Below are positions 710-13,172 of a DNA stretch of 24,125 bases, in pieces. A program made the position numbers and the translations under genes. Within the stretch, counting starts at the first letter, position 1, and each line of letters begins with the position of its first letter. The notes below the pieces were generated by a model that was not told where the DNA came from, ran no database searches, and saw only the letters and a list, made by a program, of their open reading frames with translations. Origin of the DNA: a virus; IMG/VR virus record IMGVR_UViG_3300020198_000101, positions 1 through 24,125 of that record. One strand, written 5' to 3'.

Positions 710-847
710 TTAGCGGCCCTGACCAATCCGCTTCTTACGCCCAGGCCTGGCCTTAGTCCTGACGGAGTTGCCAATGCTGGTCTTTTTGTAAGCCGCACGG
801 GATACGTGCTGGACCTTGGCAACCCCTTGCTTAGCTTTGACCGCCAT
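710..847 (-). CDS. Very small, highly basic protein (45 aa)
   Basis: A 45-codon frame runs from ATG 847-845 to TAA at 712-710. The ATG overlaps the stop of the upstream 82-aa gene as TGATG, which supports translation. About a third of the residues are Lys or Arg, with the core KKTSIGNSVRTK and a C terminus RPGRKKRIGQGR; Asp and Glu are absent. Short basic proteins with a KKTSIGN-like core are, from memory, common in marine cyanophages; no function is known to me. A nucleic-acid-binding or packaging role would be a guess from charge alone. Its coupling to the neighbouring gene and lack of acidic residues make it more likely a real gene than a chance frame. Confidence 0.6.
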   Translation of the reverse strand: MAVKAKQGVAKVQHVSRAAYKKTSIGNSVRTKARPGRKKRIGQGR

Positions 848-1095
848 CAGAGCACCGCTTCAATCGCCTCACGGCTGTTAAATCCCCAAGCTGCTGCTGC
901 CCCAGCGTTCCATTCCTGCCGCAGCACCGGGACCACATAACCTTCGTCACCGGGCTGCAACTGACGGTCGTAGCCCTCGGGATACTCCGCATCGTCAAAG
1001 GTGGTGTAGTCGTTCAGCAGGTTCTGCAAGAACGCAGAGCGTTCAGGGCTAGCTTCTGTTGCCGCAAGATCGGTAGCAGTGTTGATAAGTGTCAT
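847..1095 (-). CDS. Hypothetical protein following the lectin-type receptor protein (82 aa)
   Basis: ATG at 1095 lies five bases after the stop of the lectin-fold gene, and the frame ends at TGA 849-847, overlapping the next start. The protein is acidic and soluble, with an EASPERSAFLQNLLNDY helix and a Tyr/Asp-rich middle (YTTFDDAEYPEGYDRQL). It ends in an Ala-rich helix. By position it takes the place of the XkdW-like partners that follow the two upstream fiber-tip genes, but I see no similarity to them. A chaperone or accessory role for the lectin-fold protein is therefore only a positional guess. No known domain is recognised. Confidence 0.6.
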   Translation of the reverse strand: MTLINTATDLAATEASPERSAFLQNLLNDYTTFDDAEYPEGYDRQLQPGDEGYVVPVLRQEWNAGAAAAWGFNSREAIEAVL

Positions 1096-1100
1096 GGTGA

Positions 1101-2150
1101 CTATCCGCAGATAAGGTGATCACAGGCAAAACGCGCCGAGACGTTGCCGTGACCGACCGACGGAACGACGCTCCAGTCGGCGGCCCGAGACCCGGAACCA
1201 GCACCGTCGGTCCAGCCGCCACCCAGGACGACGGCGCGGGGGGTGTCGGCGTTTTCCGTGCCTCGACCGCCTGTGTTGGTGTTGGAGCCGCTGGTGTAAA
1301 TGCCAACGCGCTCAGTGCCCCAGATAAACAGCGTCCCTGTGGCCTGTGCCAGGCCCCATTTGCTTTGCCGCTCCCACTGCACGGTGCCGGGATCAGAACC
1401 ACGGCTGCCGGCTTCAGGGGCGCCAAACGCGGCGGCTTGTAACTCCCAGCTGAACATCAGCCGCTTGCCAAAGCTGTGTGCCACTTCAAAGAAGTTATAC
1501 CAGCTACCAGGATTGTTGCCGCTGGTCAGGCTATAAGCCGTACTGCCATTGCCGCCGTAGAAGCTAGGGATTAAAGGTGGGCTGCTGTTATCAGCGATAG
1601 TGAGGCCAATCTTGCTGGATTGAACGGCACTGAAAGTCGTGCCTGCGAAGCTGGTAGAGCCGCATAGGTATAGGTCGCACCAGAACCGACCATCAATGTT
1701 TGCCATCCCACGAGGGTCGGGACACTCAGGTCGCCAGGTCAAATCCCAGATGCTGTACTCCAAAATCTCAGCACTAGCAGTTGGGCTGCCGCTATTCACT
1801 GCTGTGGGGCGACCGCTGGGGATGTAGTGGAAGCCGCCAACTACAGAACCGCCTGTGGCGCTCGCTGGTGCCGTGGTAAAGCTGGCATCACCCACCAATG
1901 CGCCCGTAGTGGGATGCTGCCAGATGGCGTAATCGGTGTTGTTGGTAAAGCTGCCGGGCATCGTCACAACTGTCGCGGAACCGTAATGGAAACCGTTGAG
2001 TGAGCTGTTAGCAACGATGCTGATTGCCGTGGCGCTGGTCTTGAAGAACAGTGGTCCACGGTGAAGTGGCGGGCGGCGATTAAAGCCCTTAATGATGTTG
2101 ACGCCACCACCACTGCTGGACTCGATGGAGTTAACTTTAAGTGTGCTCAT
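1101..2150 (-). CDS. C-type-lectin-fold receptor-binding protein, Mtd/DGR-target-like (349 aa)
   Basis: The start is ATG 2150, overlapping the upstream gene by four bases and preceded by a near-perfect Shine-Dalgarno (GGAGGTGA, four-base spacer). The N terminus (MSTLKVNSIES) is a typical short fiber-attachment leader. Residues from about 70 onward match the pattern of phage C-type-lectin-fold tropism determinants: YAIWQHPTTGALV, VVGGFHYIPSG, DPRGMA, KIGLTIADNSSPP, GGNG, GKRLMFSWELQAAAFG, TGTLFIWG, NTGGRG, VLGGGW, SGSRAADW and a final SARFACDHL. In this family the protein binds the host receptor at the tip of the tail fiber, and the last ~45 residues are often diversified by a diversity-generating retroelement. 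Codons there have the expected form (see the variable-region entry). No reverse transcriptase or template repeat is present in the window, so active diversification is unproven. Confidence 0.85.
   Translation of the reverse strand: MSTLKVNSIESSSGGGVNIIKGFNRRPPLHRGPLFFKTSATAISIVANSSLNGFHYGSATVVTMPGSFTNNTDYAIWQHPTTGALVGDASFTTAPASATGGSVVGGFHYIPSGRPTAVNSGSPTASAEILEYSIWDLTWRPECPDPRGMANIDGRFWCDLYLCGSTSFAGTTFSAVQSSKIGLTIADNSSPPLIPSFYGGNGSTAYSLTSGNNPGSWYNFFEVAHSFGKRLMFSWELQAAAFGAPEAGSRGSDPGTVQWERQSKWGLAQATGTLFIWGTERVGIYTSGSNTNTGGRGTENADTPRAVVLGGGWTDGAGSGSRAADWSVVPSVGHGNVSARFACDHLICG
1128..1211 (-). other. Candidate hypervariable region (DGR variable-repeat-like) at the 3' end of the lectin-fold gene
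   Basis: This covers codons 314-341 of the lectin-fold protein. All 18 codons at positions I expect to vary in the family (314-318, 323-325, 327-329, 332-337, 341) end in C or T. They include ACC, GAC, GCT, AGC, GTC, GTT, CAC, AAC and TTT. Most interspersed scaffold residues use codons ending in G (G320 GGG, R322 CGG, W326 TGG, P330 CCG, S331 TCG, S338 TCG, A339 GCG). NNC/NNT codons at exposed sites are what adenine mutagenesis of AAC/AAT template codons produces. Six of the 18 amino acids can only be encoded this way, and the genome likes C-ending codons, so the signal is suggestive rather than decisive. Confidence 0.5.
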
Positions 2151-2162
2151 GGGGTCACCTCC
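2144..2162. repeat. 19-bp exact repeat at the XkdW-like/next-gene junction, copy 1
   Basis: The 19 bases tgctcatggggtcacctcc recur exactly at 3075-3093. On the minus strand they encode the last codons of an XkdW-like protein (EVTP, stop) and the first codons of the next receptor gene (MS). They contain the Shine-Dalgarno GGAGGTGA. Confidence 0.9.
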
Positions 2163-2458
2163 GCAGGGTAGGGATAGCGGCTGCGGATCTCAGCAACCTT
2201 TGCTTGCCACTCCTCAACAGTGGCTTCACCACGCTGCGACTTGAAGAACAGCGGGTCGGCTTCAGCGGTGTAGGCGGTGGCGCGGTTGCGTTGAGCGGAT
2301 GCCAGTGCCTGCTCCTGGGCAACGATGACCGCTGCTGCATCGACCTTGGCCTGATCGAGCTGGACGGGGTTGCCAGCGGCGTCGAAGGCTCCAGTGCCAT
2401 CGTCAATAAAAATGACGCTGGGATAAGCCTTGCGGATAGCTTCGTGATTGAGGGTCAT
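2147..2458 (-). CDS. XkdW-like small tail-fiber-associated protein, copy 2 (103 aa)
   Basis: ATG at 2458 overlaps the stop of the upstream fiber-tip gene (ATGA), with GGAGGT six bases upstream. The gene overlaps the next start by four bases. The protein has the XkdW-like layout: an N-terminal (I)RKAYP motif, a short strand with a D-rich turn, a central Ala-rich helix (AAAVIVAQEQALASAQRNRATAY) and a final motif AKVAEIRSRYPYP followed by EVTP. It is paralogous to the protein at 3078-3413. Members of this group are found after tail fiber genes and are thought to help fiber assembly or attachment; the exact role is not known. It sits between a fiber-tip gene and the lectin-fold gene. Confidence 0.7.
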   Translation of the reverse strand: MTLNHEAIRKAYPSVIFIDDGTGAFDAAGNPVQLDQAKVDAAAVIVAQEQALASAQRNRATAYTAEADPLFFKSQRGEATVEEWQAKVAEIRSRYPYPAEVTP

Positions 2459-3081
2459 GCTGCTACCTCCATAACGGTAATCGAAGATGCAGTTCTGTAA
2501 CGATTGAAAGTATCAGTATCGGTGCTACTTCTGTTTATGTAATAAGTCACTGAACCATTGTCACCATTCATACCTCTCACAGAATAAGTGAGCGAACTTG
2601 TTGAGGAAGGACTATCTAAATATAAAGCGTTATGATTGATTGGAACAAACGCATAACCAGGATTATTGTTCACAGTTGTAGACCTAGGTCGAGAGCCCGC
2701 AGAATCTCCCCTAAAAATAACACTACCGCCCCTGCACAAAACAGTTCCCTGATAGTCATAGGATGCCCCTATGTTCACATTGTAAAAAACTAAAATTTTA
2801 TTACTAGACGAGCTTGGCGTAATTGATACTGAAATTAAATCGGTGGATCCAACTGAATTAGCACTAATAGATTCGGAGGCTGTGTCAGTTTTAGCGGTTT
2901 GAGCCACCTGCAGAATCTTCCCCGCACTAGCAAAACTCAGCGCACCACTGCCGTTGGTCTGCAGGAACTGCCCAGCCGTGCCATTCCCCGTAGGCAGGGT
3001 CAGGGTGTTGGATCCTGCCACTGCAGGTGCAGTCAGCTCTGTGAAGCCGCTGGTGGATCCGGTAAGTCGTAGCTTGCTCAT
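2455..3081 (-). CDS. Tail fiber tip / receptor-binding domain protein, KILQV family, copy 2 (208 aa)
   Basis: ATG 3081 has GGAGGTGA four bases upstream and overlaps the upstream XkdW-like gene by four bases. Residues 1-54 are a short attachment segment typical of fiber subunits (TLPTGNGTAGQFLQTNGSGALSF begins near residue 29). KILQVAQ at about 55 opens a beta-rich domain with SITPSSSSNKILVF, RGDSAGSRPRS and YLDSPSST. The final segment is YYINRSSTDTDTFNRYRTAS followed by ITVMEVAA. This KILQVVQ...NRS...T(I/V)MEV domain is a recurring tip module in marine phages. The DNA for the C-terminal domain is near 40% G+C (33-48% per 60-base line), against 67% in the line just beyond its border. That fits an exchanged cassette. 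Confidence 0.75.
   Translation of the reverse strand: MSKLRLTGSTSGFTELTAPAVAGSNTLTLPTGNGTAGQFLQTNGSGALSFASAGKILQVAQTAKTDTASESISANSVGSTDLISVSITPSSSSNKILVFYNVNIGASYDYQGTVLCRGGSVIFRGDSAGSRPRSTTVNNNPGYAFVPINHNALYLDSPSSTSSLTYSVRGMNGDNGSVTYYINRSSTDTDTFNRYRTASSITVMEVAA
2459..2482. repeat. Fiber-tip 3' boundary repeat, copy 1
   Basis: This 24-base stretch matches 3417-3440 with two mismatches, the first 14 bases being identical (gctgctacctccat). It encodes the shared C terminus ITVMEVAA of the two tip proteins and contains the GGAGGT ribosome site of the following gene. Confidence 0.85.
2904..2919. repeat. Fiber-tip 5' boundary repeat, copy 1
   Basis: Sixteen bases (ccacctgcagaatctt) recur exactly at 3886-3901. 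They encode the KILQV junction between the GC-rich attachment segment and the AT-rich tip domain. Confidence 0.85.
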
Positions 3082-3093
3082 GGGGTCACCTCC
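3075..3093. repeat. 19-bp exact repeat at the XkdW-like/next-gene junction, copy 2
   Basis: Exact second copy of 2144-2162. It again spans the EVTP-stop end of an XkdW-like gene and the MS start of the following receptor gene, with GGAGGTGA inside. Confidence 0.9.
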
Positions 3094-3413
3094 AGGGGCT
3101 TGGGATACTTAGCTTTGACAGCAGCACAAGCTGCGTAATAGGCGTCCAGCTTGCTGGTGTCACCCTCTGATGCCCAATACAAGGCGTCTGCTAGCTCGGT
3201 AACTGGCGGGTATTCAGGTTGCCGTTGGCGTTGGTAGGCAGTGGCTGCGGCTGCAGCTGCGATTGCGTTCCAAGCAGATTGAGCTAGAGCCTGGTCAAAC
3301 TCAAACGGTTCCCCAGTCTCCTGATTGGTGACGACAAGATCGTCAAGGGTGTTGCCTTGAATGGTGAGAAGCGCATCTGGATACGCAGCTCTGATGCCTG
3401 TATGCCAGTCCAT
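3078..3413 (-). CDS. XkdW-like small tail-fiber-associated protein, copy 1 (111 aa)
   Basis: The frame is open from 3443, but I place the start at ATG 3413-3411, which overlaps the upstream TAA as TAATG and has GGAGGT nine bases upstream. The resulting N terminus MDWHTGIRAAYP matches the usual start of this family. Next come a GEPFEFD turn, an Ala-rich helix, YQRQRQPEYPPVTELADALYW and DAYYAACAAVKAKYPKP, then EVTP. The pattern (RAAYP; D-L-Y-W; KYP-K-P) is that of XkdW-like proteins found beside tail fibers in many phages; their role is probably in fiber assembly. It is a paralogue of the protein at 2147-2458 and pairs with the fiber-tip gene just upstream. Confidence 0.75.
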   Translation of the reverse strand: MDWHTGIRAAYPDALLTIQGNTLDDLVVTNQETGEPFEFDQALAQSAWNAIAAAAAATAYQRQRQPEYPPVTELADALYWASEGDTSKLDAYYAACAAVKAKYPKPLEVTP

Positions 3414-4036
3414 TACGCTGCTACCTCCATGACCGTAATCCAACTGATGCCTCTTTCATAACTAAAACTATTACCATCGACTACAGTTCTGTTTAAGTAA
3501 AACGTGGTAGCTGTTGCTTGAAGAGCCGTTGGAGTATATGTAATTGTGTTTGTATTTGCTGGTCGCCCAGAGTCAGGAAACATATGACAGAAAGCACTGT
3601 CAGGTGTTGATGCGTGATCATCTGCATAAGTCATTGCAAACGAAACTATGCCGGGATTTCTTGATCCATAAGACGATGGCAGCACAACTGTTCTTGTGCC
3701 AGAAATAGTACGCGCAAACGCTGCCATTGCGTTATAAGAAGGGCCTCCCGTTTCTCCCATAAGGGAGAATGAAACCAACATCAAACTGGTGGATGTTGTT
3801 GGCGTGATGTTCACGCTAAAAGGCATATCAGTATGAGTCTGCGCTGATTGACTGACTGTGGTTGCTGTTTCGTATTGAGTGCTCACCACCTGCAGAATCT
3901 TTCCCCCAACACCTGCTGCCAACTTGGCGGCGGTGACTGCACCTGCTGCAAGGTCATCAGATGTAATGGAACCGTCAGGAAGACCGCCTGCGCTGATGCC
4001 AGTAACAGTGCCGGACCCGTTGATAGTGATAGGCAT
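3413..4036 (-). CDS. Tail fiber tip / receptor-binding domain protein, KILQV family, copy 1 (207 aa)
   Basis: ATG 4036 starts two bases after the stop of the main tail fiber gene. Residues 1-45 (MPITINGSGTVTGISAGGL, then SITSDDLAAGAVTAAKLAAG) form the common short fiber-attachment leader. GGKILQVV at 44-51 opens a beta-rich tip domain with SVNITPTTSTSLMLVSFS and ends TTFYLNRTVVDGNSFSYERG then ITVMEVAA, parallel to the protein at 2455-3081. Between the shared ends the two sequences differ strongly, so they probably recognise different ligands. The DNA of the tip domain is about 42-45% G+C in three lines counted, lower than the leader. The product is probably carried on, or alternates with, the main fiber; free-standing tip subunits are inferred, not shown. 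Confidence 0.75.
   Translation of the reverse strand: MPITINGSGTVTGISAGGLPDGSITSDDLAAGAVTAAKLAAGVGGKILQVVSTQYETATTVSQSAQTHTDMPFSVNITPTTSTSLMLVSFSLMGETGGPSYNAMAAFARTISGTRTVVLPSSYGSRNPGIVSFAMTYADDHASTPDSAFCHMFPDSGRPANTNTITYTPTALQATATTFYLNRTVVDGNSFSYERGISWITVMEVAA
3417..3440. repeat. Fiber-tip 3' boundary repeat, copy 2
   Basis: Second copy of 2459-2482, with two mismatches over 24 bases. Confidence 0.85.
3886..3901. repeat. Fiber-tip 5' boundary repeat, copy 2
   Basis: Exact second copy of the 16 bases at 2904-2919. Confidence 0.85.
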
Positions 4037-4038
4037 GA

Positions 4039-5430
4039 TCAGACCACCACCCAGTTGGAATTGTTTGGAATAGTCACGGTGACCCCGTTGTTAATTACGA
4101 TAGGCCCTGCACTGAGGGCGTTTTTTCCTGCCGTGATGGAATAGCTGGTAGTGATAGTGGACGAGTTCTCGTAGAACACGTCATCCGTACCACCACCTGC
4201 TGCCCCACCAGCAGTGCCCCAGCTCAGTACGCCAGCGGCGTTTGACTTCAGGGCATGACCAGAGACCGTGGCATCCGTAGCGGGCAGCGTCCAGGTGACG
4301 TTGGCTGCAATCGCGCTCGGAGCTTGGAAAGCTACATATTGACCACCTTGGCCAGTTGCCTCACCAAAGCGTAGGTCTGACTGGTTATCAAGCAACACGT
4401 CACCAGTGACCGTACCACCTGTCAGGTTCAGCTTCTCGTCAACCAGCTCCTGGATCGCCCCCTGCACATTGTTGGAAGCAATCGTGCCAAAGGGAGCAAA
4501 TACAATGTTGGCAGCATCACCAGGCACATAAGCCGTCACCCAGATAGTGCCGGTGTAGACCCGCATAGCCGACAGCGTGGTGCTGAAGTACAGGTCACCA
4601 GCGTTCAGCGGATCGCCGTCGTTATCCAGGGTTGGATCAACGGCAAAGCTGCCTAGGTAGCGGTCGTCAAACTGATCAAACGCTGCCAGTGCTGAGGCAG
4701 CAGAGTTAGCAGCAGCAGTTGCGCTGTTAGCTGCGTTTGTTTCACTGTCAAAAGCGTTGTCTTCGCTTGTGGCTGCGTTGGTGGCCGATGTGTTGGCAGC
4801 TGTAGCTGAGTTTGCAGCAGCTGTTGCGCTGTTGGCTGACGCTGTGGCGCTGTTGGCTGACGCTGTGGCGCTGTTTGCAGATGCAGTTGCGCTGTTAGCC
4901 GAAGCGGTAGCGCTGTTGGCTGCGTTAGTTGCCGACGTGCTAGCAGCGCCAGCGCTAGCAGCTGCAGCCGTTGCGGATGCACTGACTGCGCCGACGTTAG
5001 AGTCGACATACGTCTTTGTTGCTGCGTCATTGGCGCCAACGGGTGCGCCGACGTTGATGATTCGCTGGTTGCCAGCCGTTGGCAGGCCCGTAGCCGAGTC
5101 AATGCTGACCGTTTGCTTCAGGCTGTCGTCCAGCTCCTGCTCCAAGAACAGGTGCTGCAGGTTGCTGGTGTCCAAGTCACTGGCTACCAGCGTGGACCCG
5201 TCGACAAAGTCGACCAGGGGGGTGTTAGCCGGGGTGATCCGGCGCACCTCCACCCTGATCCCGTTTGCTGGCGCAGAGGCCAGCAGCACCGTGGTGTTGT
5301 TGACGTAGGTGTACGCCGTGTCAACGAAGTTGACGAAGACCTTGACGTGCTCCTTCTTGATGTACTGGAAGGGGATGGCGTACTGGGTGGTGGCCCCGTT
5401 GCCGGTGTAGACGACGTAGGAGTAGGCCAT
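4039..5430 (-). CDS. Tail fiber protein with T7 gp17-like N terminus (463 aa)
   Basis: ATG 5430 overlaps the stop of the giant internal protein as TGATG, with AGGTGA seven bases upstream. Residues 1-105 match the T7 gp17 N-terminal virion-attachment domain: YTGNGATTQYAIPFQYI, VEVRRITPANTPLVDF, DGSTLVASDLDTSNLQ. Residues ~120-150 contain NVGAPVGANDAATKTYVD, a usual linker. Residues 150-247 are an Ala/Ser/Thr/Asn-rich stalk with heptads NSATASA (about 172-212), expected to form a trimeric coiled coil. Residues 258-303 (YLGSFAVDPTLDNDGDPLNA, then GDLYFSTTLSAMRVYTG) and 330-405 are standard fiber modules, and the end is a short beta-rich cap (VTIPNNSNWVVV). It is shorter than T7 gp17 (553 aa) and lacks a large tip, which may be supplied by the separate tip proteins downstream. 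Confidence 0.9.
   Translation of the reverse strand: MAYSYVVYTGNGATTQYAIPFQYIKKEHVKVFVNFVDTAYTYVNNTTVLLASAPANGIRVEVRRITPANTPLVDFVDGSTLVASDLDTSNLQHLFLEQELDDSLKQTVSIDSATGLPTAGNQRIINVGAPVGANDAATKTYVDSNVGAVSASATAAAASAGAASTSATNAANSATASANSATASANSATASANSATASANSATAAANSATAANTSATNAATSEDNAFDSETNAANSATAAANSAASALAAFDQFDDRYLGSFAVDPTLDNDGDPLNAGDLYFSTTLSAMRVYTGTIWVTAYVPGDAANIVFAPFGTIASNNVQGAIQELVDEKLNLTGGTVTGDVLLDNQSDLRFGEATGQGGQYVAFQAPSAIAANVTWTLPATDATVSGHALKSNAAGVLSWGTAGGAAGGGTDDVFYENSSTITTSYSITAGKNALSAGPIVINNGVTVTIPNNSNWVVV
4828..4932. repeat. Tandem 21-bp repeats encoding the fiber stalk heptads
   Basis: Five consecutive 21-base units begin at 4828, 4849, 4870, 4891 and 4912. The first two are identical and the others diverge at a few positions. 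Each encodes one seven-residue period (NSATASA/AANSATA) of the tail fiber stalk. The unit length equals one coiled-coil heptad, so gain or loss of units would lengthen or shorten the stalk in frame. Confidence 0.9.
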
Positions 5431-8400
5431 CAGTAGTTCACCTGTTCAGTAAAGGCACGAGGATTTCTGGACGCTGGAGCGGTCGCCCCACCGTACTGAT
5501 TATCGCCGCCCATCCGCTTGCGCAAGTAGTCTTTTTTATCTTTGTCTTCTTGAGCGGCCTTTTCTTCTTTGGCAATTTCCTGGCCCTTAGCGGTTGTGGC
5601 CTTGTACTCCTTCTTGGCCAGCTCCTTGTATTTGGCAATTTCTGCTTGCAGGGCGGCGGCACGCAAGCTCGTGTACTTGCTGGAAGCCCCTTCGATTGGC
5701 CAGGACTTGTACTGCTGCGACTCGATCAAGGCGGTAGCTGACTGCAGGAACGTGCGGCCAGTCAACTCATCCTTTACTGTGGCAAAAATCTGGACGTAGT
5801 CCTCCAGCTCGCTTGGCTTAAGACGCATTTCAGTGCCAAAGTCGGAAGCGCGAGGACCGCTGAAGGTAGTGCCCTTGCCATGCAAGAGGGCCATTTCCTC
5901 ATGTACTGGGGTCATTATTTGGCGCTTTACCTGCATGGAGGACCATGGCGCAAACTGCAGTAGGCCTTGCAGCCAAGGCATTTCAGCAGGAATTTGGTCA
6001 GAGCCCAGGATGCCAACGGTCAAGATGGGGGCCCCAGTAATGAAATCCCTGCGTGCAGGCAAGGTGTTTGAGAAGCCAGGTACTCCATTGCGCACTTCGT
6101 CCAACGTTTCCTGGAAGAAGCCCATTAAACCGCCAATTTCGCTGGGGTCGACGGAGCGGGCTATTTGATCTGTTTCACGGCGAGCTGCACGCAAGGCAGA
6201 GCTGTAAGGCACCATGCTGGCCGCAAGACGAGCAAAGTACCGGGACCAAGCGTCTCGCTGGTTAGCGCCAGTCATGACCTTGCTGGGGTTAAAAGCAGCT
6301 TCGTAAAACTCAGTAAATCCTTGGAAATAGGCTTTGCTTAAAACGCCCATGGTCGACATGCGAACCACAGTCAACGTTAAGGCGGCGCCAAGGCGATTGC
6401 GGTTTTCATCTGACAAGCTGTTGGCAATGTCAACGTAGTCCCCAATGCCTCCAAAAAGGGTAGTGAACGGCTCAAAGGCCCGCATGGAGATTGGTTCTGA
6501 CCACCGACCTTCTTCGTCGCTCCAGACTTGGACTGTATAAGGAGCGCGTTGTTCAATATCTGTCCATTTTCTTCTTAGTTCAGGGTCTATGGGACCACCA
6601 CCGTTAAAGCGGATGTAACCCATTCCCGCGGCCATGCTTGCAAGGGCTAAAGCCGCAGTGCCAGTTGCCATTTCGCCCAAGGCTCGATCTCTAGTAAAGG
6701 CGTCTGCGCTAGTAATGTCTCGCCAGAAAGTATCTACAAAAACTGCAGCGGGCGTATTGCGTGCTGCGCCTTTAATAATGTTGACGCCAACTCGCATGAA
6801 AGGCTGAACAAACCTAACAACAGGGCCAATTCCAGGTACATTGGCAGCCCGGTTAAAAATTTCGCCAGGGTAAGATGTAAGGCGACCTGCAACTTGCAAA
6901 GGCCCTTCAGTCATAACTCCAGCTAGCTTGTCTCCAAACATGCCTTCGTTAATATATTTTTTTGCAAAATCTTGCAGTTCTTGCCCCTCAAGGCCGCGGC
7001 TCATTCCCAGTCGCACGCCTTCGTTGTAAGTGCGAGGCTCTAGCTGAGCCCAAATTGAGTCGGTGAAATTCACCGAATCCATAAATTTCTGAGCGTGTGG
7101 GCTGTCTAGGTGAACGTCAGCCAGGCTTTTGCCGTTAATTACGGCATCTTTGATTGCCTCATCCGTTCTGGCTGCAGCGTATTGCTGTGCCCATTTCCAA
7201 GCCTCAGGGCTCATGTCTTTCATGCCGCGCTCTACTGCCAGCTCCATGCCACGAGGCAAGTGGCGGACGTGCTCAAAAGACTGGCCGGCCAATGTGGAGT
7301 TAAAGGTGTCGACAGTCAGCGCAAGGCGAGTGGCGCCAGTGCCAAGAACACGCCACAGATGATTTGCAAGTTGCCCCAGAGGCGTTTTGGCGTATTCCAC
7401 GCCCATGTCCATGGTATTGACTGTCCAGCCAGTCATGGCCTTAGGGCCTTGCATCAACTCCAGTTGCGCTTCTTCTTTGGCAACACGCGCTAAATAGTCG
7501 ACAGTGCTGTTTTCAAGGTTAAACAGCGACTGGCCAGCTTTGAACGCATGCCCAGCGACTCGCAAGGCGTTGGACATGTTCATCCAATACTGCTGGTACA
7601 TCATTAACGAATACATTGCCCGCTTTGATTCACCCGTCAGGGCTGCCCCTGCAGCTTGCTGCAAGGGAAGACGGGCCAAGTTAAACATGCCGTTTGTAAG
7701 GTTAGTAGTAAGGGTTACGCCGCTGCTAATCAGGTTGTTAGTGCGCAGCATCAACAACGCATTAGGTTCAAGCGTTTTCACGTCGTCAAAGTTGCGATAA
7801 AACTTGGTGCGAGCTTTGCTGTCTGCGCCAATAGACACAAGTGTCTGCGCAAAAGCGTCAGCCGCTGCCATTGCCTTAGGCGTAATTTCACCGCCGTTGA
7901 CTGCCGCAGTCAGCTCTGGGTCAATCTTGTCGGTAATGGTCTCATCAATAGATTTACCTTGTTCGACCTCAAGTTCTTTTTTGATCAAGCCATCCACAAA
8001 CAAACCATCCACGTCAGTCCTTGCGGCGTCACCAGCGTCTGGTACTGCCGTGGCTGGCACGTCAACGGCGCCTTTGCCGTCGATGCGGTAAGGCGGGATC
8101 TCGTAATCCCTGGACATTTGCATTTCAAGGCCCATTTGGCCCCATGGGCGGGTAACGCGCATTACGGCTTGGTGTACCGCTCGGCTGGATTCTGCGGCAG
8201 AGATCAAGCGGGCCAGTCGCTCTGATTCGTTAAGGCCATCAAAGCTGGCACTGTTAAGCCACAAAGCCGCTTCACGCGATGCCTCTACTTGTTTCAGGTC
8301 GGCGTAAGCCATGGCGCGGTTGAGAGCGCCTTGCTCGTACTCACTGAATCCACGAGTTATCGCGTCAAGGCCTTTCATGATTGACTCGCCATCTTCGCCG

Positions 8401-11400
8401 TGGCGGTCAAACCAATCTTGGTTAGAGCGACGTAGTTGCTCAACGTTCATCACCGGTATGCCCGATTCCGTGGCCCGATCAGGCAGGACCTTGGACATGG
8501 CGTTGAGGCCTTCAACCAAGTTCTCTCGTTGTACGACGTAAATCGTTTTGCCAGAAGGCGATTGCACTTTTTGGAAGTTGTTGGCCATCAGGTCTTCCAA
8601 GGTGACCTCGCCGTTTTGCAGGGCTTTCTCGTTATTTACAACTTCTCGCGCAAACTGACGTACCCAGTTTTCATTGTTTGCAGGACCAGGAGGAGGGTCA
8701 ACAGGTACAGGACCCTCGGGCTCATCTGGCCTGATGCGAACGCGACCGCCTGACAAGGTTTCTTGTAAAGGCGCAAATTCACCAAGAGGGCGGCCTGCCA
8801 TCTCGCCTTGGTAAATGCGCTCAAAGACGTCATCCCAAGTCTGGAAGCCGTTGCCCTGAGCCCAGTTCCTGGTCGCCTCCAGGAATTTCAAGAACTTGTC
8901 AAACAAGGCTCGGACGCCTTTTGTCGTTTTGATAGGTTCGCCAGCTTGACGAGACAGGCTGTAGACAGCCGCAGACTCAGCAATAATTTCAACGTCATCT
9001 GCCAGCGCTAGGTCGGGTTGACCGCCGCGGGCAGCAATCTTTTCCAGCTCAGGACGGGCTGCACGCAGTACCGCTTTTTCTTGCGGGGTAGCAAGGTAGT
9101 CAATTACAAAGTGGACTGCCTCGTGGTAGCCAGTTCCCCGCAGCTGGTGGGGGTTTTTACCTGCAAGGGCAATACGAACCAGGTTTGTCACAGGGTCGTA
9201 CAGGCCAGCAGTAGTGATGTCCTTATCGGGCACGGAGTCGGGGATGCCCCAGTCCCTGCGTGCAGCAGCAATTTCGGCAGGAGTCAGCTTAATTTTGGGC
9301 TCAAAATTGACACTCAACTCTGGCCCTGCAATGCGCTTAAGCTCAGCGCGTAGATCGTTAAGGATCCGCCCTTGAGAAATAACCGGTCGCTTCCACAGCG
9401 GGGTTCTGAAGTCAGCAATCGCGTCACGTATTTCATTGGTAAGGCGTGCCAGCTCTGGGCCTTCGGCTGCCTTGGCTTGCTTGCTTAGTTCGCTCAGGCG
9501 GCGAATTAGGCGGGCGCCTTCGCCAACAGCGTTGAAGTCAGACCTGTCGATCTTTGCCCGGCTGGCGGTGCCGCCTTCTGCCGCAGCATCTGCGCGTTGG
9601 GCAAGGATCTGATCGCGCAGGGCAATGCGGTCTGCTGGCGGCATGTCGGCCAAGCCAGCAGCTAGAGCGCTGTCAATATCGGCAATTTGCTCGCGTGACG
9701 CGGCTGTAGCGGCTGTAGCGGGTGCGGGAGGCGCGGCTGTAGCGGGTGCAGTTGCCTCGGCCTCAATGGCATCGCGCTTGGCGTAGTAATCGTTGTAAGC
9801 CTTGAGCTGAGCCTCGTATTCGTCTCTGGCTTCAGGTGATACGCCCGCCTTGCCAGGCTTAATAGTTTTAACTTCTAGTTGGTTTTCGGCGTCCCAATAA
9901 ATTCGGACTGAATGAGTGCGTCGACCGCCGCCAGCGCGGATGCCTCCTTGATGCGCAAGGCCGCCATAGCCAAGTTTGGCCAGTTCAGCGTTTATTCCAT
10001 CAAACAGTTCTGTTAAATCACTGGCGCTATAACGCATGTTGTAACTAGCTCCGCGGGCGGTATCCAACATTTCGCCATAGCTCATTAACCCAGACTTTTC
10101 CCAGTCGCCCAGGATTTCATCCCACACTTCGCTGCCAGATTGCTTTTTAAGAGCGGCAACCTCGGGATCAGCGCTGTTCCAATCCAGCATTTCGTCTGCA
10201 TCAAAAAATTTGACCGGTTTCTTTTCTTTAGTCAAATAAATAATTGGCTTGTATTCTTTTGCCTGCGGCGGGTTGTCAGCCAGTTCCCGAAGGCGATTTG
10301 CCAGGTTAGTAGCTTGCTCAAGGTTGCCGAGCTTGGCGCCAGGGCGCAGGTCCGCCAGCAAAAACTGAACACGCTGCCTCAGTGCGTCGTCGATTGTGCG
10401 AGCCTCTTGGCCTGGGCGTTTTGTAATAACATCCAAATAGTTTTGAACAAGTTCATCGCCTCTTGCGCCTTGTAGCCATGCCCTGAACATGGCCTGCTCT
10501 TCAGCAAACCGAACCTTGCCTAGCCCCTGTTCATCTAAGGCTGCTGCAATTTCTTGCAGTCGTTCAGGTGCTGGTATGCCTTTATTCCGAAAACCAAGCA
10601 AAGTAATTTCTTCGCTAGTAGCACCTGCTTTTTTTAGAAGCCTTGTTAGGGGTTCGCCTCCGTATTCCCTTAATGCAGGAACGGGAATTTCGTTTTTAAT
10701 AGCAGCTTCTTTGCCTTTAGCTGTGTACGACCCTGCGGTGCTGAAATCGTCAGTCGTATAAAAACCGTTGCCAAACAGGTTGGTATTGGTCCAGTAATCG
10801 CCAGATTCCACACTCTTAGGAATACCGCCAGGAATCTCCTGGGCAGTTCCGTGGAAATACAACCCTTGGCCGCGAGTGTCGCCAGTGGCAACGGTTTTGC
10901 CACCAGATACAAGTTTGGGAGCAACCGGAGGTTCAGGCTCAGGGCCCAGGGCTGCAATGCGAGCCTGGATGTCAGACGACGCAGCAGCGGGGGTAGGCGC
11001 AGCAGCTGCAGCCGGCGGCTGCTCTAGCGGAAGCCGCGGCCCATTGATCTCATCCTCAATGGCTTGGCGCAGGCGGCCTACGTTTTCTTTGACGACCACA
11101 GCAGCGGTGCGCTTGCCCTTTACCTGGCCTGCCATCTCATTCAGCAGGTCGCGGACTGGGCCGGTGTAACCAGTCACCCGGTTAAACACCTCAACGGCAG
11201 CAGCGGCCTGCTCACGAGCGGCCTGACTGCCGGCCACGTCGATCACATTGCCAGCTGCCTCCATAACCCCTTTGCGGCCAGGAATCGCTGCAGACGTAAG
11301 CGCAACCATCTCCTCGCGCAGCGCCTTAAAAGCCTCTGTGCGGACGTTTAGCAACTGGTCAAAGTTGGAGGTTTTGAACATGTCCTCCATGCCAGGCAGG

Positions 11401-13172
11401 ACACCGCCAGACGGGCCACTGGTCTGGGCAAACTTGGCCTCCTGCATGGCCTGCAGGATCTTTTCAGCCGACCATTTGCTTTTGCTAGCAGCAGCAGCGA
11501 CGTCACGGACAATGGCCTCATCCAACGGCTCAGAGCCCAGGGCCATTGCCTTGGCCAGGTCCAGCTTGCCGGTGGCGCCCTTGTCAAAGATGTCCTGCGG
11601 CAGGCGGCTCAGGGGGATGGCCTTTTCTGCAACGGGGCCACGGACGTCAATGCTGCGCTGTCGCAGTTGGTCGACGCCTACGCCCATGTCGCGCATGATC
11701 TTGGCGGCATCCCATGGGGTGCCCATGCCTTCGGCCATGTTTTCCATGGCGCCAATAGCGCGAGCCTGCTCAGCAGACGGCGCCTCAATCTCCCAGGTCA
11801 GGATGTTCTGCCGGCCAGATCGCTTGGCCAAGTCAAGGCGGTTGTGGCCATTAACCACATACAGCAGGCCGTCGGCTGGATCGCGCCAGACGCTGACGAT
11901 TTTTCCAAACAGCGGGTCGTATTCGGTGGCTTTTGCAAGAGAGCCAGATGCGCCAGTTTTGTTAAGGCGGCCCGCCTCCTTGAATTGGAAACGCTGCGGG
12001 TCGGTGGCAATGTCAGCTACCGAGGTTTCCCGTACCTGGCTGTACGAGGGCAGGATGGTGCCACGGGCTTCAGGAGTTACAGCGCCAACCGAGTCAGGTA
12101 CGGTGCCAGCAGCACGGGCAACGGCTACCTCAACGTCGTCAATCGCTTTCTTGTAGTCAGCTTCAGCCTTAAGGGCAGACTCTTGCGCCGGCAAACCTGG
12201 CTCAGCTATTTCAGCAGCGGGGGGCTTGCCAGGCTTAGCAGCAGCAGGAGGAGCGCCTGGTTCGGTAACAGCCTTGGCTGTTGTCTCAACGGTTTGCTCA
12301 GCAACAGGTTTGGCGCCCCGAAATGCCTTGCCCCAGGCCACCGCAGCCTTAGCGGCAAAGCCCAAGGTCTGAATAATTCCGTTAGCTGCAGGCTCAAGAA
12401 ACAAGCTCTCAACTGCGTTTTTCCAGCGAGCTTCTGTCGCCGTGTCGCCAGGCTGGGAGCGGACCAGATCTGCCAGTGGACGACCAAGAGGGGTGTCAAT
12501 CTGACTTTCGACCCACTGCAATGCTTGGCTTGATGTGCGGACTGCGTCCGAAACAATGCCGCCATCAGGATCAGCAGCCCGATCCTCCAGATACCCCAAT
12601 GCGCTATCTGATAGGCGCTTCTCTTCAGGCTTAAAAGCGGCATAGGCCGTAACCATGCCGGCAGGTGCCTCTTTGACGCTGGAGACAGCAATACGGCCAG
12701 CCAAGCCCTTCGCGCCTGGCGCCGACCTCATGGCCTGAGCTGTTTGGCTAACAACTGCTCGGGCGGGAGCCGTGACACGAGCAGCCGCTCCTGCCCCAGG
12801 AAGGCGCCTTGCAGCAGCTGCGCCTCTTCCTAGGCCAAATCTGGCCAGAGCAAACCCCAGGCCAGCTTGGACAAAACCAGCTACAAAGCCCTCTGCAGCG
12901 TTGACCTCTACCTCTGGTAAAGCCGGGAACACGCCGAGGATTTTGGCGTCAGGGGCACCAGGCTTTCGGGGAGTGCCCAGCTTAGAAAACTCATCAGCCG
13001 GCAGATTGCCCAACAGCTCTTGGGTAAGGTCGCGGGCCCCCTTAAGAATGACCCGGCCGGTGTCAAAAGGGATTCGGGTGTCGCGCTTTTTCTTGGGATC
13101 TGGAAAGCTCTGCGGGACATTAGCCTCGACAACCGCGGCTCCCTGGGAGTCAGTGGTGACCTTGTAAGGCAT
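5430..13172 (-). CDS. Giant polyvalent internal virion protein at the gp16 position (2580 aa)
   Basis: ATG 13172 follows the gp15-like stop by two bases, with AAAGGGAT upstream. It is about twice the size of T7 gp16 (1318 aa). Domains in order: an Ala-rich N terminus (90-180); a ParB/sulfiredoxin-like domain (~370-500) with VVNGHNRLDLAKRSG at 439-453; an ADP-ribosyltransferase-like domain (~768-1105) with LYFHGT (H774), GNGFYTTDD (Y805) and a late HSVRIYWD strand; a zincin-like domain (~1300-1410) with GYHEAVHFVIDYL (H1350, E1351, H1354) and a possible third ligand in EIIAES (1395-1400); and a conserved-looking C-terminal region (1800-2450) with PFMRVGVNIIKGAARNTP and a hydrophobic helix at 2168-2188. 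Ala/Pro linkers lie at ~719-733, 1138-1159 and 1485-1500. This layout is the 'polyvalent protein' class of phages. By position it should be ejected with the DNA. I see no transglycosylase domain like that of T7 gp16. Confidence 0.85.
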   Translation of the reverse strand: MPYKVTTDSQGAAVVEANVPQSFPDPKKKRDTRIPFDTGRVILKGARDLTQELLGNLPADEFSKLGTPRKPGAPDAKILGVFPALPEVEVNAAEGFVAGFVQAGLGFALARFGLGRGAAAARRLPGAGAAARVTAPARAVVSQTAQAMRSAPGAKGLAGRIAVSSVKEAPAGMVTAYAAFKPEEKRLSDSALGYLEDRAADPDGGIVSDAVRTSSQALQWVESQIDTPLGRPLADLVRSQPGDTATEARWKNAVESLFLEPAANGIIQTLGFAAKAAVAWGKAFRGAKPVAEQTVETTAKAVTEPGAPPAAAKPGKPPAAEIAEPGLPAQESALKAEADYKKAIDDVEVAVARAAGTVPDSVGAVTPEARGTILPSYSQVRETSVADIATDPQRFQFKEAGRLNKTGASGSLAKATEYDPLFGKIVSVWRDPADGLLYVVNGHNRLDLAKRSGRQNILTWEIEAPSAEQARAIGAMENMAEGMGTPWDAAKIMRDMGVGVDQLRQRSIDVRGPVAEKAIPLSRLPQDIFDKGATGKLDLAKAMALGSEPLDEAIVRDVAAAASKSKWSAEKILQAMQEAKFAQTSGPSGGVLPGMEDMFKTSNFDQLLNVRTEAFKALREEMVALTSAAIPGRKGVMEAAGNVIDVAGSQAAREQAAAAVEVFNRVTGYTGPVRDLLNEMAGQVKGKRTAAVVVKENVGRLRQAIEDEINGPRLPLEQPPAAAAAPTPAAASSDIQARIAALGPEPEPPVAPKLVSGGKTVATGDTRGQGLYFHGTAQEIPGGIPKSVESGDYWTNTNLFGNGFYTTDDFSTAGSYTAKGKEAAIKNEIPVPALREYGGEPLTRLLKKAGATSEEITLLGFRNKGIPAPERLQEIAAALDEQGLGKVRFAEEQAMFRAWLQGARGDELVQNYLDVITKRPGQEARTIDDALRQRVQFLLADLRPGAKLGNLEQATNLANRLRELADNPPQAKEYKPIIYLTKEKKPVKFFDADEMLDWNSADPEVAALKKQSGSEVWDEILGDWEKSGLMSYGEMLDTARGASYNMRYSASDLTELFDGINAELAKLGYGGLAHQGGIRAGGGRRTHSVRIYWDAENQLEVKTIKPGKAGVSPEARDEYEAQLKAYNDYYAKRDAIEAEATAPATAAPPAPATAATAASREQIADIDSALAAGLADMPPADRIALRDQILAQRADAAAEGGTASRAKIDRSDFNAVGEGARLIRRLSELSKQAKAAEGPELARLTNEIRDAIADFRTPLWKRPVISQGRILNDLRAELKRIAGPELSVNFEPKIKLTPAEIAAARRDWGIPDSVPDKDITTAGLYDPVTNLVRIALAGKNPHQLRGTGYHEAVHFVIDYLATPQEKAVLRAARPELEKIAARGGQPDLALADDVEIIAESAAVYSLSRQAGEPIKTTKGVRALFDKFLKFLEATRNWAQGNGFQTWDDVFERIYQGEMAGRPLGEFAPLQETLSGGRVRIRPDEPEGPVPVDPPPGPANNENWVRQFAREVVNNEKALQNGEVTLEDLMANNFQKVQSPSGKTIYVVQRENLVEGLNAMSKVLPDRATESGIPVMNVEQLRRSNQDWFDRHGEDGESIMKGLDAITRGFSEYEQGALNRAMAYADLKQVEASREAALWLNSASFDGLNESERLARLISAAESSRAVHQAVMRVTRPWGQMGLEMQMSRDYEIPPYRIDGKGAVDVPATAVPDAGDAARTDVDGLFVDGLIKKELEVEQGKSIDETITDKIDPELTAAVNGGEITPKAMAAADAFAQTLVSIGADSKARTKFYRNFDDVKTLEPNALLMLRTNNLISSGVTLTTNLTNGMFNLARLPLQQAAGAALTGESKRAMYSLMMYQQYWMNMSNALRVAGHAFKAGQSLFNLENSTVDYLARVAKEEAQLELMQGPKAMTGWTVNTMDMGVEYAKTPLGQLANHLWRVLGTGATRLALTVDTFNSTLAGQSFEHVRHLPRGMELAVERGMKDMSPEAWKWAQQYAAARTDEAIKDAVINGKSLADVHLDSPHAQKFMDSVNFTDSIWAQLEPRTYNEGVRLGMSRGLEGQELQDFAKKYINEGMFGDKLAGVMTEGPLQVAGRLTSYPGEIFNRAANVPGIGPVVRFVQPFMRVGVNIIKGAARNTPAAVFVDTFWRDITSADAFTRDRALGEMATGTAALALASMAAGMGYIRFNGGGPIDPELRRKWTDIEQRAPYTVQVWSDEEGRWSEPISMRAFEPFTTLFGGIGDYVDIANSLSDENRNRLGAALTLTVVRMSTMGVLSKAYFQGFTEFYEAAFNPSKVMTGANQRDAWSRYFARLAASMVPYSSALRAARRETDQIARSVDPSEIGGLMGFFQETLDEVRNGVPGFSNTLPARRDFITGAPILTVGILGSDQIPAEMPWLQGLLQFAPWSSMQVKRQIMTPVHEEMALLHGKGTTFSGPRASDFGTEMRLKPSELEDYVQIFATVKDELTGRTFLQSATALIESQQYKSWPIEGASSKYTSLRAAALQAEIAKYKELAKKEYKATTAKGQEIAKEEKAAQEDKDKKDYLRKRMGGDNQYGGATAPASRNPRAFTEQVNY

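Follow-up and report, generated by a model that had tools for sequence, protein, structure and literature searches.

Diversity-generating retroelements (DGRs) are usually described where all of their parts are present. In the Mtd/Avd/TR/Brt system of Bordetella phage BPP-1, the variable region (VR) lies at the 3′ end of mtd, is changed at template adenines, and is followed by a GC-rich hairpin, avd, the template repeat (TR), and the reverse transcriptase (RT) gene; the hairpin is required for efficient homing in this phage (PMC3240598). The locus described here shares the target family, the VR position and the changes at template adenines, and its relatives have the BPP-1 gene order, but the locus itself holds only the VR-bearing target, without hairpin, avd, TR, or RT. 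The mtd genes of the cultured Synechococcus siphophages S-CBS1 and S-CBS3 encode proteins 66–68% identical to the one studied here and are followed by the same 82-aa open reading frame (ORF), in complete genomes where no RT was found; these phages keep a hairpin and an RT 3′ fragment, whereas our locus keeps neither. Likewise, Marinomonas phage P12026 has a Mtd-domain tail protein with a CDHLI-type end and no RT in its complete genome, but it retains a shortened avd-like frame, shares 35% identity, and infects a gammaproteobacterial host. A T7 gp17–BPP-1 Mtd chimera (LR745708, L168) also combines a T7-like virion with a Mtd receptor tip. It is an engineered laboratory construct with a Mtd-like gene 17 and was rejected as a natural relative.

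The virus record analysed here (the window) is 24,125 bases long and encodes a T7-type major capsid, a tail tube, and a gp17 N-terminal domain (PF21703, PF17212, PF03906), matches that agree with the initial annotation of a T7-like phage. The capsid is 75% identical to that of the Prochlorococcus phage P-SCSP1 and its group of cyanophages. The record derives from a natural T7-like phage, and its host is likely cyanobacterial; no bacterial genome encoding a close Mtd relative was found when one was sought to name the host. A 2580-aa ORF at 5430–13172 occupies the place of the T7 internal virion genes and has no Pfam match at E 0.01. The receptor-binding protein gene is located as follows.

1101–2150, minus strand: mtd-like receptor-binding protein gene, 349 aa (Pfam, phrog, tblastn, and PDB homology)

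The protein matches mtd_2nd (PF21916) over the cut-off in a Pfam profile search (E 2.9e-19), the tail protein family phrog_11262 (E 6.7e-107), and solved Mtd structures (PDB 1yu4 and others, E 7e-51). By tblastn it is 66–68% identical to the Mtd proteins of S-CBS1 and S-CBS3 (68% for S-CBS1) and 39% identical to that of BPP-1. It is a member of the Mtd (major tropism determinant) family, with a mtd_2nd domain and a lectin-fold C terminus, in keeping with the lectin-fold receptor gene, frame, and residues annotated initially. Its homology and its position after the tail fibre genes suggest a role in host recognition and tropism. Upstream of mtd (2147–4036) are two fibre-like ORFs of 208 and 207 aa, paralogues with the common ending ITVMEVAA, each followed by one of a pair of paralogous ORFs (103 or 121 aa).

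The last ~40 codons of the gene can be assigned as a true DGR variable region. The decisive evidence for this identity is comparison with the TRs of relatives. As template we used the TR of relative L007; the phage's own genome holds none.

1126–1235, minus strand: DGR variable region core, from codon 306 (comparison with the L007 TR)
1142, 1144, 1145, 1147, 1148, 1150, 1151, 1156, 1157, 1161, 1168, 1169, 1171, 1172, 1177, 1178, 1183, 1198, 1199, 1203, 1207, 1208, 1210, 1211, 1216, 1217, and 1229: the 27 L007-template adenine sites in the window VR

The window VR differs from the L007 TR at 20 of the 27 template adenines and at one of the 83 other bases (Fisher p 3.9e-15). The single non-adenine difference is the T in a TAC codon, where the TR of another relative, L012, reads AAC. 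Template adenines fall at base 1 or 2 of 14 codons (308, 312, 314, 315, 318, 323, 325, 327, 328, 332, and 334–337), and the template fixes codons G316 (except its silent third base), A317, A324, V329, G333, F341, and A342. Two of the adenine changes fall on silent third bases (GGA to GGT and CCA to CCG), which selection at the protein level would not favour. Between the window and L007, pN is 0.218 and pS 0.067 in the VR, and 0.056 and 0.381, respectively, in the gene body. The near restriction of change to adenines bears out the earlier proposal of a past or present DGR variable region. All 18 codons between the conserved frame residues do end in C or T, as had been noted, which is suggestive and not decisive; such endings make up 69% of codons elsewhere in the window mtd (18 of 18 by chance, ~0.001), and for this reason codon endings alone were rejected as proof of a DGR. 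The further statement that most frame residues use G-ending codons was too strong, as 8 of 19 do. The window protein is a new Mtd whose VR is genuinely the work of a DGR.

Related mtd genes were found at 56 loci in a scan of viral contigs. RT (PF00078) was present in 25 of the 50 records tested, the BPP-1 control being one of the 25. Four DGR-bearing relatives (L007, L009, L012, and L014) encode Mtd proteins 81–86% identical to the window protein and have the gene order mtd, hairpin, avd, TR, RT (324 aa), and 82-aa ORF, with the TR ~440 nt past the mtd stop. The avd genes of L009 and L012 encode 134 aa; that of L009 is recognised as DGR Avd above the cut-offs of both NCBIfam and Pfam, and the L009 RT is 38% identical to BPP-1 Brt and has the motifs YMDD and IGALTSQ. 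A GC-rich hairpin with a GNNA loop follows the mtd stop in all RT-bearing loci examined, and the cassette adjoins mtd in the DGR-bearing relatives seen. The DGR reading had been made to depend on a template or RT in some close relative, and close relatives have both. In a separate observation, the near-identical DGR-bearing contigs L015 and L012 differ in that the L015 VR has a large internal frame-keeping deletion.

Comparison of the gene order in these four loci with that in the window, L003, L004, L005, L008, and L010 places the missing cassette at a short junction.

1101–1125, minus strand: DGR-less 3′ tail CTGTGATCACCTTATCTGCGGATAG, coding for ...CDHLICG and stop, which replaces the IMH 3′ part TGCCGGGCACCTGGT... 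of DGR-bearing relatives
1096–1100, minus strand: 5-nt junction TCACC, at the site occupied in relatives by the hairpin, avd, TR, and RT (~1.67 kb; synteny)
847–1095, minus strand: 82-aa ORF (phrog_30757), which comes after the RT in DGR-bearing relatives and directly after mtd here

The 82-aa ORF starts 5 nt past the mtd stop in the window and also in L001–L006, L008, L010, and L011. The junction finishes with TCACCATG, which is also how the L012 RT gene ends, and it may therefore be located at this point. The window retains an intact VR body and GC-rich stretch TCGGCGCG, and CTGTGATCACCT stands in place of the IMH end TGCCGGGCACCT throughout the window group except in L005 and L006. The 3′ part of the tail, together with the spacer and ATG, occurs in nine viral contigs, seven of which have the FACDHLI form. 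All belong to the DGR-less group, and the tail was therefore rejected as a marker of another DGR type with a remote RT; similar ends occur in BPP-1 and P12026. The window group has no post-VR hairpin. Specifically, no perfect stem of at least 5 bp follows the window stop, and a candidate hairpin at the junction was rejected because its 4-bp stem is within the range of shuffles.

No RT was identified in the window record, no RT fragment longer than ~8 nt in the window, and no template copy of the VR in an adenine-tolerant search for a second copy on either strand of the window and the population contigs. Avd is likewise missing: PF22296 is absent in G003, G050, and G091, and the L009 Avd and RT have no tblastn match in the loci of the window population. 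Over the ~32 kb covered by the window and contigs of its population, the phage lacks the RT, TR, Avd, and hairpin-flanked IMH of a complete functional DGR. The initial annotation had found neither RT nor template in the window and had supposed them to lie to the left, to be supplied in trans, or to be lost; the searches agree, and relatives carry avd, TR, and a DGR-type RT on exactly that side. Loss in cis in the window lineage is the best supported of these branches, because the 82-aa ORF starts 5 nt after the mtd stop and the hairpin is gone too.

We consider it very probable that a DGR wrote the Mtd VR, that the cassette was lost in this lineage, and that the VR is now fixed. According to this explanation, the RT would have frequently miscopied adenines of the template, and the resulting cDNA would have replaced the VR at the C-terminal end of Mtd. 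A DGR-less allele would then have joined mtd directly to the next gene, without the IMH 3′ part, hairpin, avd, TR, and RT. The VR would now be a fixed surface for receptor binding, altered through ordinary mutation and recombination and no longer by retrohoming.

A difficulty for this explanation is that VRs across the DGR-less group still differ at 12–24 of 28 template-adenine sites despite the common tail, and this divergence needs recombination, several losses, or activity in trans. Besides loss, DGR-less phages could refresh the VR by homologous recombination, with DGR carriers as a group-wide source of variants; this addition is possible, although we do not favour it. The L004 gene body is nearest to that of DGR-bearing L009 (94.1%), and in L005 and L006 the DGR-type IMH end TGCCGGGCACCT is joined to the orphan end. 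L008 shares with L009 the fibre N-terminal family and a 95% identical 82-aa ORF, yet its mtd has the orphan tail. The same mtd type occurs on a T7-like backbone (the window) and on siphophage-type backbones with a J-like fibre (L004 and L011), the cassette is found on both kinds of backbone, and in L015 mtd with its DGR lies beside a tape-measure gene. However, the genomes are few, and the VRs could predate the spread of the tail. The distribution suggests that mtd moves as a module, with or without its DGR, and the DGR-less tail may have spread between phages by recombination. We hypothesize, more tentatively, that DGR-bearing phages serve as a common source of new receptor variants, and that DGR-less phages acquire a diversified mtd tip by recombination along with a “locking” tail, which abolishes the homing site and so keeps a successful variant. 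The locked allele would pass between podophage and siphophage backbones.

It is unlikely that the VR is still diversified in trans by a DGR of a co-infecting phage or of the host that supplies RT, Avd, and template RNA. Such activity would be consistent with the strong differences at template-adenine sites among VRs of the DGR-less group, with the existence of DGR-bearing relatives with near-matching TRs, and with the intact VR body and GC-rich stretch. However, the IMH 3′ part and the post-VR hairpin are gone, and efficient homing in BPP-1 depends on the hairpin (PMC3240598). In addition, L005, L008, and L010 have 4–6 non-adenine changes relative to the L007 TR. Variation within populations also argues against it: all near-identical DGR-less pairs show 0 of 106 VR differences and 8 to 59 differences elsewhere, a comparison of four contigs of one population and two other pairs in which minor variants are masked by consensus assembly. 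The window, L001, L002, and L003 have the same VR, with 34 differences at other sites between the window and L001 and 59 between L001 and L003. The L005/L006 and L010/L011 pairs also have identical VRs (9 and 20 differences elsewhere). The comparison does see DGR activity, since the DGR-bearing pair L029/L031 has 8 of 106 VR differences, all at template adenines, with 4 elsewhere; another DGR-bearing pair, L017/L018, has identical VRs and two differences in all. The window VR is most likely now frozen, and we infer that it is not diversified in trans.

Even less probable is a DGR of the phage's own that lies elsewhere in its genome. The record is a fragment, and some DGR targets are far from their RT (PMC3521204). 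Contigs of the same population, however, reach ~4.1 kb further than the portal gene (L091) and 4.3 kb further than the left end of the window (L003), and no RT, avd, or TR was found in the ~32 kb of this population covered by the window and contigs. If the genome is near 38 kb, ~5 kb with early genes and polymerases would lie outside this coverage. T7-like relatives of ~40 kb identified by way of the portal lack an RT, and where DGR-bearing relatives were seen, the cassette sits next to mtd. The search beyond the window that had been proposed found neither RT nor a near-copy of the VR in these ~32 kb of the population, and the TR was present in relatives.

A gene body under purifying selection and a VR rich in amino-acid changes can both arise from selection alone. 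The idea that the VR was never a DGR target, and that its pattern comes only from strong positive selection on the lectin loops, is nevertheless refuted by the restriction of change to adenines: the changes include two silent third bases, affect template adenines whether silent or not, spare the other bases (1 of 83), and are ongoing in near-identical DGR-bearing relatives.

Cassette loss, the explanation we prefer for the window, also appears elsewhere among Mtd phages. In S-CBS1 and S-CBS3 (L023 and L058), a hairpin and an RT 3′-end fragment directly follow mtd; this is an unannotated remnant of a deleted DGR. In L047 and L050, 60 and 23 avd codons, respectively, are joined to the RT end, L024 keeps the start of avd, and L039 has a whole avd without TR or RT. 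The shortened avd-like frame of P12026 (L167:3301–3500) follows a Mtd with a CDHLI end. Most fragment-keeping orphan VRs fit a relative's TR better at non-adenine sites than at its adenines, and some have added non-adenine changes. A tree of 45 Mtd bodies (VR left out) shows at least 12 changes of DGR state but by itself gives no direction of gain or loss; cassette fragments give the direction where present. S-CBS1 and S-CBS3 have the same kind of fragment yet stand apart on the tree; if recombination is allowed for, there may have been fewer events. Also present among the loci is a contig without RT (L013:2743–4940) that carries two tandem mtd genes, each with a VR-like end, followed by the 82-aa ORF. 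Repeated DGR loss has been mentioned as a possibility (PMC3521204), and no report of it in Mtd phages was found in the literature searched, which omits most subscription journals.

DGR loss happened repeatedly in related water phages, apparently with a single fixed form of the protein as the result. That one family has lost the DGR more than once, leaving fragments in cultured phages, is more interesting than the single orphan. Active, partly deleted, and fully deleted cassettes stand side by side in one Mtd family, even in cultured phages, and the cassette fragments reveal which way the change went. Genes shaped by DGRs escape searches that are anchored on the RT. It can now be tested whether phages give up hypermutation after reaching a good receptor tip, and how fixed tips spread.
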